From Fibrobacteria bacterium (GTDB taxonomy: Bacteria; Fibrobacterota; Fibrobacteria; UBA11236), in contig JAJNBB010000018.1 of the NCBI GenBank assembly GCA_021155885.1, positions 1 to 58,702 of the forward strand: a DNA stretch of 58,702 bases, given 5' to 3'. The position numbers and the translations under genes are program-made. How positions within the stretch are numbered: position 1 is the stretch's first letter; each line of letters begins with the position of its first letter. The notes under the pieces are model-generated. The model was not told the DNA's origin. It ran no database searches and was given only the letters and a program-made list of their open reading frames with translations. Shown here one piece after another: positions 14,129 to 43,783 of the stretch.

Positions 14129-14222
14129 GTTGTTAGTTGTTGGTTGTTAGTTGTTCGAAAACGCAACATAGAGCGGGGTTCGATTGTCTTCTCCAACAAC
14201 CAACAACCAACAACCAACAACC
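14129..14222. repeat. Heptad inverted-repeat element, copy A
   Basis: Left arm 14129-14155 is a run of GTTGTTA/GTTGTTG heptads. Right arm 14193-14222 is four CCAACAA heptads, i.e. the reverse complement. The core is 37 nt. It starts 31 nt after the secA stop and ends 3 nt before the tmk start codon. One of five related elements in the window (others at 23070, 27783, 29816 and 43679). Confidence 0.85.
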
Positions 14223-23069: not shown

Positions 23070-23210
23070 GGTTGTTAGTTGTTCACCGTGATCCTGTCCA
23101 TTCCCTGTCGTTGTTGGTTGTCAGAGGCGTAGTTTATCGCCAATTTGCCCATTTTTGAAAGAAATATGGGGTTGGATTTTCCAACAACCAACAACTGACA
23201 ACCAACAACC
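23070..23210. repeat. Heptad inverted-repeat element, copy B
   Basis: GTTGTTGGTTGTCAG (23110-23124) pairs perfectly with CTGACAACCAACAAC (23195-23209). An extra GTTGTTAGTTGTT lies at 23071-23083 and CCAACAACCAACAA at 23181-23194. It begins 10 nt after the parA stop. It shares CCCTGTCGTTGTT with copy D. Confidence 0.85.
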
Positions 23211-27782: not shown

Positions 27783-27905
27783 GTTGTTGGTTGTTAGTTG
27801 TCGGTTGTTGGTTAAGGCAGCAACGGCAGCAACCCGGATCTTTTAACTTTTCCAACAACCAACAACAACAGGGATAAAACCCGGAAGCCTTAACAACCAA
27901 CAACC
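27783..27905. repeat. Heptad inverted-repeat element, copy C
   Basis: Left arm 27783-27813 of GTTGTTG/GTTGTTA/GTTGTCG heptads; right arm in two parts, 27851-27870 and 27891-27905 (AACAACCAACAAC). It begins 5 nt after a stop codon and lies just upstream of the leuA promoter and attenuator. Confidence 0.8.
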
Positions 27906-27943: not shown

Positions 27944-27973
27944 TTCCCAACCCCCTTCCCAGTTTGCTATAAT
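27944..27973 (+). promoter_or_regulatory. Sigma70-type promoter of the leu leader
   Basis: A perfect -10 TATAAT at 27968-27973, with a weaker TTCCCA at 27944-27949 (18-nt spacer). The expected start site is about 27979-27981, i.e. at or next to the leader-peptide ATG. Confidence 0.65.
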
Positions 27974-27979
27974 GAATTC

Positions 27980-28033
27980 ATGTCCTTCGCGACCCACAAT
28001 GCGCAACTCCTACTTCTTGGCCTTATCGGCTAA
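27980..28033 (+). CDS. Leu-rich attenuator leader peptide
   Basis: A 17-codon frame, MSFATHNAQLLLLGLIG, with four Leu codons in a row (28007-28018) then Leu-Ile. It sits between a perfect TATAAT and an intrinsic terminator, upstream of 2-isopropylmalate synthase. In enteric bacteria leuL works by the same plan: ribosome stalling at Leu codons when leucyl-tRNA is low. There is no ribosome-binding site, and the predicted transcript start falls on the ATG, so translation may be leaderless. An overlapping frame from 27972 gives a peptide much poorer in Leu. Confidence 0.7.
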   Translation: MSFATHNAQLLLLGLIG

Positions 28034-28088
28034 GGAGGGGTGACGCGTTTGGAAAAAAGCCCGCTCCTTTCGAGCGGGCTTTTTCTTT
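28021..28088 (+). promoter_or_regulatory. Transcription attenuator of the leu gene (pause, antiterminator and terminator arms)
   Basis: Terminator: AGCCCGCTC (28058-28066) with GAGCGGGCT (28072-28080), loop 5 nt, then TTTTTCTTTT. Antiterminator: AAGGAGGGG (28032-28040) pairs with 28060-28069 (nine pairs, one bulged G at 28063). Pause hairpin: CCTTA (28021-28025) with TAAGG (28031-28035). The three structures are mutually exclusive in the classic 1:2 / 2:3 / 3:4 way, and the leader stop codon overlaps arm 2. Confidence 0.75.
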
Positions 28089-28229
28089 TCCGTGCGGCCG
28101 TTCCCGAGAGGGGCGGGCGGCCGGGTTAAGAGGTTCGCCGCAAGGAACATCAGCTATATCCAGACGCTGCGCGGTGGTTCACACGCAGAGGACGGAAAGG
28201 AGCGGCCCCGACCGGGACGCAAAACAAAA

Positions 28230-29813
28230 ATGGACGACTCAAAGAGCGGAATCAATATCGACACATCGAACGGGCGCCGGCCGTTCTTCTACGACGTCAC
28301 CTTGCGCGACGGCAACCAGGCGCTGCGCAATCCCTGGAACCTCCACGAGAAGGAGAAGGTGTTCCGCCAGCTCCTGAAGCTGGGCGTGCAGGGCATCGAG
28401 GTGGGCTACGCGGGCGCGAGCCCGATGGACTTTGCCTCGGTCGAGCACCTCGCGCGCCTCGCCCCGAAGGACGTGGTGGTCGCGAGCCTGGCCCGTGCCG
28501 TGCCGCGCGACATCGAGATGGCCGGCCGGGCGATCCTGCACGCCCCCCGTCCGCGCATCCACACCTTCATCGGCCTCTCGCCCTTCGCGATGGAGAACGT
28601 GCTGCGCATGGAGCCCGCGAAGGTGGCGCAAAAGGCCGTCGAATCCGTCGCGCTGTGCAAGTCCGTCCTGGGCGGCAAGGGCGACGTGCAGTTCTCGGCG
28701 GAGCACTTCGGCGACAGCATGGACAACCTCGACTTCGTGATCGAGACCTTCCATCGCGTGATCGAGGCCGGCGCGACCGTGATCAACCTGCCCAACACGG
28801 TGGAGCGTTACCGCCCGCTGGTGTTCGTCGAGATGGTGCGCAAGGTCGTGGCCGCGCTGCCGAAGCACGTGACCGTCGCGGTGCACACGCACAATGACCT
28901 GGGCATGGCGACCGCCACCACGGTGGAAAGCTTCTTCGCGGGCGCGACGCAGCTGGAGTGCGCGTTGAACGGCCTCGGCGAGCGCGCGGGCAACACCAAC
29001 CTCTACGAGGTGGCGGTGGCCATCCATAATTGCGGCGTCGAGAACCCCGTGAACATGCGCGAGATCTACGAGACCTCCCTGCAGGTTTCGGAGTGGTCGC
29101 GCGTGCCGATCTACGAAAAGGCGCCGCTGGTCGGCTCCGACGTGGTCGCGCACCGCAGCGGCATCCACCAAGACGGCGCCTCGAAGACCCAGGGCATGAA
29201 GAAGGGCGCCTACCGCGCCGTCGAGGGCGACCTGATCGGCCGCGGCGAGTCGGATCGCATCGCCTTCACCAGCCAGTCGGGCAAGAGCGCCGTTCATGAG
29301 ATCGTGAAGGGGCTCGGCCTGCCGATCACTTTGGAGGAGGCCGCGGTGCTGCAGCCGGCGCTGAAGGCCGCCTCGGAGCAGGCCGGCGGGGAGCTGTCCG
29401 ACGCGCAGATCAAGGCGGTGTACTTCGACACGCTCGTCAACCGGAACGCCCCGCTGGTGTTCTCCGGGATGAAGGCGAACGCCGACGGAGACGGGTTCAC
29501 CTTCAAGGTGGTCTGGAACGGCGAGCAGAAGTCGTTGTCCGGAAGCGGAACCGGCCCGGTGGATGCGTGCATGCACGCCGTGGAGCAGATCGGGATGTAC
29601 TTCCACCTCGTAGAGTACACCCAGCAGGCGCTCGATCCCGAGGGCAGCGAATTCGCGGCGGAGGCGCTGTCGCAAATCCGGCTGCAGCGCAAGGCGAACG
29701 CGGGCGCCCAGCCCGAGGGCCCGGTCGTGATCGGCCGCGGCAAGGACGCCGACACCGTGCTGGCCAACGTCCGGGCGCTGTTCAGCGGGATGAATTTGTT
29801 GTTGGCGGGGTAG
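28230..29813 (+). CDS. leuA: 2-isopropylmalate synthase
   Basis: 527 residues. Condenses acetyl-CoA with 2-oxoisovalerate, the first step of leucine synthesis. Visible: DVTLRDGNQAL with the catalytic Arg/Asp at the start of the TIM barrel, HTHNDLGMATATTVESFFAGATQLE (metal-binding His pair region), GLGERAGNTNLYEV, AHRSGIHQDG, and a C-terminal regulatory-type domain. I took ATG 28230; earlier in-frame codons give a basic, unconserved extension, but the nearest AGGAG is 28 nt upstream, so an alternative start is possible. The Leu-codon attenuator just upstream supports the leucine assignment over homocitrate or citramalate synthase. Confidence 0.9.
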   Translation: MDDSKSGINIDTSNGRRPFFYDVTLRDGNQALRNPWNLHEKEKVFRQLLKLGVQGIEVGYAGASPMDFASVEHLARLAPKDVVVASLARAVPRDIEMAGRAILHAPRPRIHTFIGLSPFAMENVLRMEPAKVAQKAVESVALCKSVLGGKGDVQFSAEHFGDSMDNLDFVIETFHRVIEAGATVINLPNTVERYRPLVFVEMVRKVVAALPKHVTVAVHTHNDLGMATATTVESFFAGATQLECALNGLGERAGNTNLYEVAVAIHNCGVENPVNMREIYETSLQVSEWSRVPIYEKAPLVGSDVVAHRSGIHQDGASKTQGMKKGAYRAVEGDLIGRGESDRIAFTSQSGKSAVHEIVKGLGLPITLEEAAVLQPALKAASEQAGGELSDAQIKAVYFDTLVNRNAPLVFSGMKANADGDGFTFKVVWNGEQKSLSGSGTGPVDACMHAVEQIGMYFHLVEYTQQALDPEGSEFAAEALSQIRLQRKANAGAQPEGPVVIGRGKDADTVLANVRALFSGMNLLLAG

Positions 29814-29815
29814 GG

Positions 29816-29996
29816 TTGTTGACAACGACAGGGGTGGGATGGTTGTTAAAACCTTCCGGCCCGCACCCTGTCGTTGTTAGTTGTTGGTTGTTGGTGAAAT
29901 CACAGGACACAAGACTTCCCCGCTTTCATTCTGACATTAATCCTCTTTTCTTCTCGCTTTCTCTGACAACCAAGAACTAACAACCAACAACGAACG
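29816..29996. repeat. Heptad inverted-repeat element, copy D
   Basis: A nested structure. ACAACGACAGGGGTG (29823-29837) is the inverse of CACCCTGTCGTTGT (29864-29877, one extra G). It continues with GTTGTTAGTTGTTGGTTGTTGG (29873-29894), whose counterpart CTAACAACCAACAAC ends at 29991. It starts 3 nt after the leuA stop and ends 13 nt before rapA. Confidence 0.8.
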
Positions 29997-40581: not shown

Positions 40582-41962
40582 GCGGCGCCCCCCATCGCGG
40601 CTTCCACCGCCAGCATGGCGGCGCGCGCCTTGTGCCGGGTTTCCTGGTACTCGGTCTCGGGCACCGAGTCGGCGACGATGCCGGCGCCGGCCTGCACGTA
40701 GGCCACGCCGTCCTTGAGCAGCAGGGTCCGGATGGTGATGCACGAATCCAGGTTCCCGCGGAAATCGAGGTAGCACACCGCGCCGCCGTAGACCCCGCGC
40801 CGCGTGGGCTCCAGGTCGTCGATGATTTCCATCGCGCGGATCTTGGGCGCGCCCGACAGCGTGCCCGCGGGCAGGCAGGACATCAGCGCGTCGAGCGCGT
40901 GCGCTTCCTTCTTCAGCGTGCCGCGCACCACCGAGACGATGTGCATGATGTGGCTGAGCCCCTCGATTTGCATGAACTGCGGCACGTGCACGGTGCCGTA
41001 GGCCGACACGCGCCCCAGGTCGTTTCGTCCCAGGTCCACGAGCATGACGTGCTCCGCGATTTCCTTCGGGTCCTTCAGCAATTCCTCGCGCAGGGCCTTG
41101 TCCTCGGCCTCGTCCTTGCCGCGCTGTACGGCGACGGATTGATGGCGCGCAGCCGGCGGTAGATCGAGATCGCGTCGGCCGAGACCTTGGCCTCGAAGCG
41201 CTGCGACAGCACGATTTGAAACGCGTCCCCGGCGCGGATGAACTCCTTGCAGCGCTCGACGCCTTCGACGTACTGCCCGGGACCCATGTTGGACTTCCAG
41301 TCCAGGGCGGGCGGGGTCTTGCCGGGCTCCGTGGCCAGCGCTTTCGCCTCGGCGGGCGCGGCGGCCCGCAGGTCCTTCTCCAGCCCCTCGATGAGCGACA
41401 GCGCGCGCGCGTAGGCGGGCTCGAGCCCGCCGAACTCGTCGGGCATCACGTTGGCGACGATGCTGAGACGATGCTTCAAATGGTCGAACACCACGAAGGC
41501 TTCGTAAATCCCGAAGTCGAGGTCGTTGATCCCGTAGTCGTCGCGGCCCGCCTCGGGGATGTTTTCCAGCAGGCGGATGGAGTCGTAGGCGAAGAAGCCC
41601 ACCGCCCCCCCCGAAAACGACGGCAGCTCGGTGTCCTCGACGCCGCGGAAGCGGCCCAAAAAGGCGCGGAATTCCGCGAGGGTATCCCCCTCGTACTTGC
41701 GGGAGTCCTTGCCAAGAATCTCGATTTCGCGGCCGCGCGCGCGGAACACATACAGCGGGTCACGACCGAGGAAGGAGTAACGCGCCAGTTTCTCCCCGAT
41801 TTCGGCGCTTTCCAGCAGGAACGCGCGCCTTCCCGGAAGGCGCAGCTTGAGCAGGGCCGTGATCGGGGTCTCGAGATCGGGCAGAAAATCGCGGCTGATG
41901 GGAACGACGTTCGCTCCCGTCTTCGCGAGGCGGGAACGGACTTCTTCAAACGGTAAAATCAC
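40578..41962 (-). pseudogene. trpE: Anthranilate synthase component I, disrupted by an out-of-frame deletion
   Basis: The N-terminal part is normal ([50 protein letters not shown] ... RAINPSPY) but then shifts frame near 41125 and stops at 41075. The other frame carries [61 protein letters not shown] and so on to 40578. Compared with the family, about 37 residues between NPSPY and RG (including the GSSPE and PIAGTRP motifs) are missing, roughly 110 bp and not a multiple of three. GTG 41962 with GAGG before it is the likely start; TTG 41983 is possible. PabB is an alternative name, but trpG-trpD context favours TrpE. An assembly error is possible. Confidence 0.85.
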
Positions 41963-43678: not shown

Positions 43679-43783
43679 GTTGTTGGTTGTTGGTTGTCGG
43701 TTGTTGGTGAAACCGAAGGGTTTGGGCTGATCCCGGCTTGTTTTCTTGCTTCCAACAACCAACAACCAACAACCCACAACGAC
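43679..43783. repeat. Heptad inverted-repeat element, copy E
   Basis: Left arm 43679-43708 (GTTGTTG, GTTGTTG, GTTGTCG, GTTGTTG heptads), core 43 nt, right arm from 43752 (CCAACAA x3, then CCCACAACGACAG). The ACAACGACAG end is the reverse complement of the CTGTCGTTGT seen in copies B and D. Starts 17 nt after the protease stop. Confidence 0.85.

Follow-up and report, generated by a model that had tools for sequence, protein, structure and literature searches.

A candidate leucine attenuator with a predicted leaderless leader peptide upstream of leuA in the Fibrobacteria

The region preceding leuA in a Fibrobacteria bacterium (Fibrobacterota; GCA_021155885.1, contig JAJNBB010000018.1) raises the question of whether this gene is controlled by a leucine attenuator whose leader peptide is translated from an AUG at the very 5' end of the RNA. 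The stretch of 58,702 nucleotides that was analysed is termed the window; the leader spans positions 27944-28089 of it.

Anatomy and folding of the leader in the window

An earlier note on this DNA had proposed a perfect TATAAT, a 17-residue peptide with LLLLGLI and an intrinsic terminator ahead of leuA. All three were present, and the gene behind them matched a LeuA2-type profile (Table 1). A short open reading frame rich in Leu codons was thus found in front of a gene of leucine biosynthesis. The -35 element of the window is weak, while most relatives carry TTGCCA at the same place. The annotated start of leuA (28230) had no clear Shine-Dalgarno sequence and may be misplaced.

Table 1. Coordinates of the leader features and of leuA in the window
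Feature	Position	Strand	Basis or remark
-35 element TTCCCA, 18-bp spacer to the -10	27944-27949	+	sequence
-10 element TATAAT with upstream TG (extended -10)	27968-27973	+	sequence
Discriminator GAATTC, 6 nt	27974-27979	+	predicted +1 at 27980, the A of the ATG, from promoter geometry
Leader peptide ORF MSFATHNAQLLLLGLIG*, 17 aa, contains LLLLGLIG, predicted leaderless	27980-28033	+	ORF reading and relatives
Control codons CTC CTA CTT CTT (Leu10-13)	28007-28018	+	codon reading
Leu15 codon CTT	28022-28024	+	codon reading
1:2 hairpin (anti-antiterminator), forms when the leader is untranslated	27994-28052	+	folding
Region 2, AAGGAGGGGU, 5' strand of the antiterminator	28032-28041	+	pairing
Region 3, GCCC-G-CUCCUU, shared by the antiterminator (as 3' strand) and the terminator (as 5' arm)	28059-28069	+	pairing
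Intrinsic terminator, 13-bp stem (28054-28084, -20.9 kcal/mol), then T-rich tail	28054-28089	+	folding
leuA, 2-isopropylmalate synthase (NCBIfam NF042434, LeuA2 type)	about 28230-29813	+	NF042434 match above cut-off

The anatomy and the alternative pairings of the leader were established by computation. The whole leader RNA folded 6 standard deviations better than dinucleotide shuffles. The antiterminator is mutually exclusive with the terminator and is so placed that a ribosome stalled at the control codons would free it and one at the stop codon would mask it. It contained the one bulge that had been described, a G, but ten pairs (nine Watson-Crick and one U-G) instead of nine. Judged against shuffles, the antiterminator duplex of the window was not better than expected (p = 0.34), and pairing of the arm in the starved state was 0.79 compared with 0.80 for the shuffles, because the GC-rich arm pairs with almost anything. 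Support for the antiterminator comes from the relatives and not from the window alone. In the untranslated RNA of the window a long 1:2 hairpin engaged region 2 (-30.8 kcal/mol, computed for the leader as far as the loop of the terminator), and the terminator arm paired upstream with a probability of 0.08.

By analogy with the classical leu, trp and his attenuators, stalling, termination and the response to leucine would occur as follows. RNA polymerase would begin transcription at the A of the AUG that opens the leader ORF, and a ribosome would load on the 5' end of the RNA without a Shine-Dalgarno sequence. When leucine is scarce, the ribosome would stall on CUC CUA CUU CUU and cover region 1; region 2 would then pair with region 3, the terminator would be blocked and leuA would be transcribed. 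When leucine is plentiful, the ribosome would proceed to the stop codon UAA (28031-28033). Because this codon overlaps the start of region 2, a ribosome positioned there would mask region 2, so that the terminator would form and transcription would end. If the leader is not translated, the 1:2 hairpin would form and the terminator would again win. As judged from the sequences, it is very probable that a ribosome-mediated transcription attenuator of this kind, with a leaderless leader, controls leuA.

Conservation of the leader and of the RNA switch

Some LeuA match was obtained in all 61 genomes of the first search for relatives, and a search of the phylum confined LeuA of the window type to the class of the window. 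To assess conservation, 58 genomes of this class were sampled, which provided 59 regions upstream of leuA. A Leu-rich leader peptide together with an intrinsic terminator was found at 56 of the 59 loci, and none of these 56 leaders lacked the terminator. The leaders encoded 48 distinct peptides, in which Leu made up 27% of the residues after Met; at least three Leu within six residues occurred in 55 of the 56, and outside the Leu codons the peptide sequence varied freely. The earlier note had named a loss of Leu codons in close relatives as evidence against a leucine attenuator; in the sequences of the relatives the codons were kept. The three loci without a leader were all read by eye. One of them is cut by a contig end (G053), and in the other two (G045 and G057, genus g11) leuA is present and the attenuator absent. 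One leader, MTKYFFLPGLF in G033 (L016), contains no more than two Leu, along with two adjacent Phe, while its terminator and antiterminator are kept; this possibly reflects a change of the sensed amino acid or decay.

The Leu codons of the leaders were unusual. CTA accounted for 109 of 284 leader Leu codons (38%), whereas its share of Leu codons was 0.5% across 19 leuA genes and 0.9% across the genes of the window. In the window leader, CTA or CTT occupied four of the five Leu positions, whereas both codons together make up 6.5% of Leu codons in the window genes. Constraints from RNA pairing may contribute to this codon choice.

The pairing in the window, which did not exceed that of shuffles, would also be expected if an unrelated terminator of the upstream gene had come to lie next to a fortuitous short ORF. 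Such a chance arrangement is refuted by the conservation of the architecture in the relatives (56 of 59 loci); the enrichment of rare codons and the recurrence of this layout at trpE, there with Trp codons, also speak against it, and we regard it as extremely improbable. The leucine attenuator that the earlier note had proposed was borne out by the combination of Leu-rich peptide, terminator and co-varying antiterminator at these 56 loci and by the rare Leu codons.

Averaged over the 56 leaders, the probability of upstream pairing by the terminator's 5' arm was 0.91 in the starved state, in which a ribosome occupies the Leu codons, and 0.33 when it stood at the stop codon. Since shuffles averaged 0.67, this measure is weak as a significance test, and it was replaced by duplex energies and swaps between families. 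The region 2:3 duplexes had a mean energy of -16.3 kcal/mol for a leader's own strands, compared with -11.8 kcal/mol when strands were swapped between families and -11.2 kcal/mol for shuffles; taken singly, the own duplex reached p <= 0.05 in 34 of 56 leaders. Across lineages the pairing core appeared as GGAGUG:CACUCC, GGAGCG:CGCUCC or GAAGCG:CGCUUC. This six-pair core was altered on both sides at position 3 (G-C/A-U) and position 6 (C-G/U-A), and 308 of 336 cells were paired, where related sequences were counted without a tree, so that the events are not independent, and the best-complementarity alignment favours pairing. The compensatory changes that had been suggested as a check were therefore seen, terminator and antiterminator changing together between lineages. 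The third, untranslated state was less uniform, with a mean upstream pairing of 0.51 over the 56 leaders. Values of at least 0.5 were reached in 24 of the 56, many of them from the Fibrobacter family, so that the 1:2 hairpin is not a constant feature of the leaders.

Promoter spacing and the start of the leaders

In the window the AUG lies exactly 6 nt after the -10, and the leader has no Shine-Dalgarno sequence (duplex with the anti-Shine-Dalgarno sequence, -0.8 kcal/mol). Between a TANNNT hexamer and the AUG there were 6 or 7 nt in 54 of the 56 leaders, although at automatically picked loci the leader start had been chosen by a rule that requires this spacing (only three loci gave no leader). 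By our own estimate a random ATG would satisfy the rule about 3-6% of the time, and few loci had other candidates. The best -10 match within the 60 nt upstream fell at this place in 42 of 56 leaders, and in most a TTGCCA-like -35 was located further upstream. Two leaders deviated: in G040 no match was found, and G055 has a spacing of 9 nt, which predicts a 5' UTR of about 3 nt. Before the leader AUG, no Shine-Dalgarno duplex at or below -6 kcal/mol was detected in any of the 56 leaders (mean -0.3 kcal/mol), whereas leuA of the same genomes was preceded by one in 40 of 53 cases (mean -7.0 kcal/mol). The proposal of a start without a ribosome-binding site agrees with these values, and a search of the sequences for an upstream start with such a site, the observation that had been named against it, revealed none.

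It must nevertheless be weighed whether the leader of the leucine attenuator is an ordinary one, transcribed from another promoter further upstream and having a longer 5' UTR. The start site of the leader is itself a prediction, and Leu leaders of leuA in Coriobacteriia have no adjacent -10, several of them showing a purine-rich sequence resembling a Shine-Dalgarno sequence. In the Fibrobacteria, however, the 6-7 nt spacing and the TTGCCA-like -35 were shared by families whose flanking sequence was not conserved, and none of the 56 leaders had a Shine-Dalgarno sequence. The ilvB gene of the same genomes served as a contrast: no leader peptide was found there, and by eye the same promoter consensus lies about 40-45 nt before the ATG, as a leadered gene with an ordinary promoter should have it. 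On this evidence an ordinary leader is unlikely, and a leaderless start of the attenuator is preferred.

Leptospirales and Coriobacteriia also have short Leu-rich ORFs without an adjacent -10 before leuA relatives (loci L076, L077, L078, L080, L081 and L082, L095, L109, L113, L116); examples are MNQNFFTTMLLLQLLLM and MTNNAFATALLALALLR, respectively. In the Coriobacteriia example a purine-rich sequence like a Shine-Dalgarno sequence precedes the ATG.

The 6-7 nt spacing was counted genome-wide by pattern searches. In 24 genomes of the class TATAWT-N6-7-ATG occurred 3200 times and TATAWT-N12-13-ATG 1396 times (2.3-fold), while the control phyla, represented by two Leptospirales and two Melainabacteria genomes, gave 1535 versus 1371 (1.1-fold). 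The genome of the window itself had 30 versus 6; one genome of the class (G010) showed no excess. Since the spacing is enriched genome-wide, leaderless starts appear to be common in the class. An ArsR-like regulator (by eye; MDPLTDVLNAISHPTRRAIIGQL) had a conserved promoter, TTGCCAAACATTACACC-TAAGGTATAAT, located 5-8 nt before the ATG at L180-L183 (G008, G004, G005, G006), and is probably leaderless as well.

A search of 31 genomes with the function-blind pattern TTGCCA-N15-19-TATNNT-N5-8-ATG recovered leaderless Trp leaders upstream of trpE that are built like the Leu leaders. In the Fibrobacter family all 11 trpE loci read had such a leader, of the RRWWRGL or WWW type and with 6-7 nt spacing; a terminator and a complementary upstream segment were present in all eight that were checked. 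G023 had a further leaderless Trp leader, MKNVTRINLWWWQAL, before a gene taken by eye to encode a TrpB-like product. No Trp leader was found at trpE of the window or at the other loci read in families f1, f2 and f4, which include the window's own family, and the pattern search gave no attenuator-like match for His leaders. The trpE of the window (40605-41878, minus strand) consists of two overlapping frames, with about 35 profile residues missing at the junction near 41126-41130; this amounts to a frameshifting internal deletion, which is either genuine or an assembly error.

Comparison with known attenuators

The closest counterpart in content is the enterobacterial leuL (Rfam RF00512, Leu_leader), which likewise stands before leuA. 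In E. coli, leuL encodes a Leu-rich leader with rare CUA codons, followed by alternative hairpins and an intrinsic terminator. It differs from the window leader in having a Shine-Dalgarno sequence and a longer 5' UTR. A scan of the window with Rfam gave nothing at the gathering threshold; RF00512 reached 24.2 bits against a cut-off of 50 and scored about equally on the other strand. Sub-threshold matches to Leu and Thr leaders were set aside, as they occurred on both strands and tracked the terminator hairpin.

Leaderless attenuators are known from other lineages. In Sinorhizobium meliloti the 5' end of the trpL RNA (rnTrpL) is the ATG of the leader peptide, and transcription is attenuated (PMC7298713); that system differs in sensing Trp instead of Leu, in belonging to the Alphaproteobacteria and in the trans roles of its terminated RNA and peptide. 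In Streptomyces lividans leuL1, leuL2, trpL and ilvL encode leaderless leader peptides. LeuL2 (leuS) resembles the window leader in its leaderless Leu peptide followed by a hairpin and a U stretch; LeuL1 (leuA) shares the leaderless Leu peptide but is without a typical terminator (PMC8079986), and actinobacterial leuA carries a LEU pseudoknot (PMC1262725). In the ilvB(NC) leader of Corynebacterium (PMC11857589, PMC5784534) a leaderless peptide is coupled to a transcription attenuator of three hairpins, although this leader belongs to a branched-chain ilv operon and is unrelated in lineage and sequence. To go by the title of one report, mycobacterial cysteine leaders are also leaderless attenuator peptides. 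The earlier description of an unusual attenuator design is thus correct in comparison with E. coli but not in general, given these three genera and the class-wide frequency of the 6-7 nt spacing.

Control might also take another route, either as a translational attenuator or through the terminated leader RNA or its peptide acting in trans, like rnTrpL and peTrpL of S. meliloti, with the cis switch being secondary. The terminated product would be a leaderless small mRNA of about 110 nt encoding a peptide, as in S. meliloti, and actinobacterial leuA leaders often have no terminator and may act on translation. All 56 leaders, however, had an intrinsic terminator and, upstream of it, a segment that complements it and co-varies with it; attenuation in cis explains this without a role in trans. 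Their peptide sequences are free to vary outside the Leu codons. This route is very unlikely, and transcription attenuation in cis is retained. It is a rather doubtful suggestion that leaderless initiation is itself part of the regulatory design, the Leu and Trp attenuators depending on the leaderless pathway or the terminated leader acting in trans. If true, such dependence could arise, for example, via the balance of initiation factors or stress-altered ribosomes, in a phylum where leaderless genes would be widespread but unreported.

The principal survey of leaderless genes, in many phyla, does not mention Fibrobacteres (PMC3160421), and according to another the Shine-Dalgarno signal is less obvious but detectable in this group (PMC3155529). 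In the open-licence papers searched, none was found on attenuation, leaderless genes or start sites in Fibrobacter. The design is already known, while its occurrence and conservation in Fibrobacterota seem to be new. The distribution of leaderless attenuators would gain a phylum, and, to judge from the enriched spacing, leaderless genes appear to be common in Fibrobacterota. The sharing of this layout by Leu and Trp sensors in groups as distant as Fibrobacterota, Actinobacteria and rhizobia points to a 5'-terminal AUG being favourable for attenuation, perhaps through early loading of the ribosome and little RNA being spent. For cellulose-degrading rumen bacteria the leaders provide a candidate mechanism of leucine and tryptophan control.

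The window also contained at least five elements of 7-bp repeats (CAACAAC/TAACAAC), apparently intergenic, at 14129-14221, 23071-23209, 27783-27904, 29873-29991 and 43679-43780; one of them closely precedes the leu promoter. Allowing up to two mismatches, CAACAACCAACAAC had 28 matches compared with 0.14 expected. The elements are inverted arrays, in which minus-strand copies are followed by plus-strand copies, and they resemble dispersed palindromic repeat elements.
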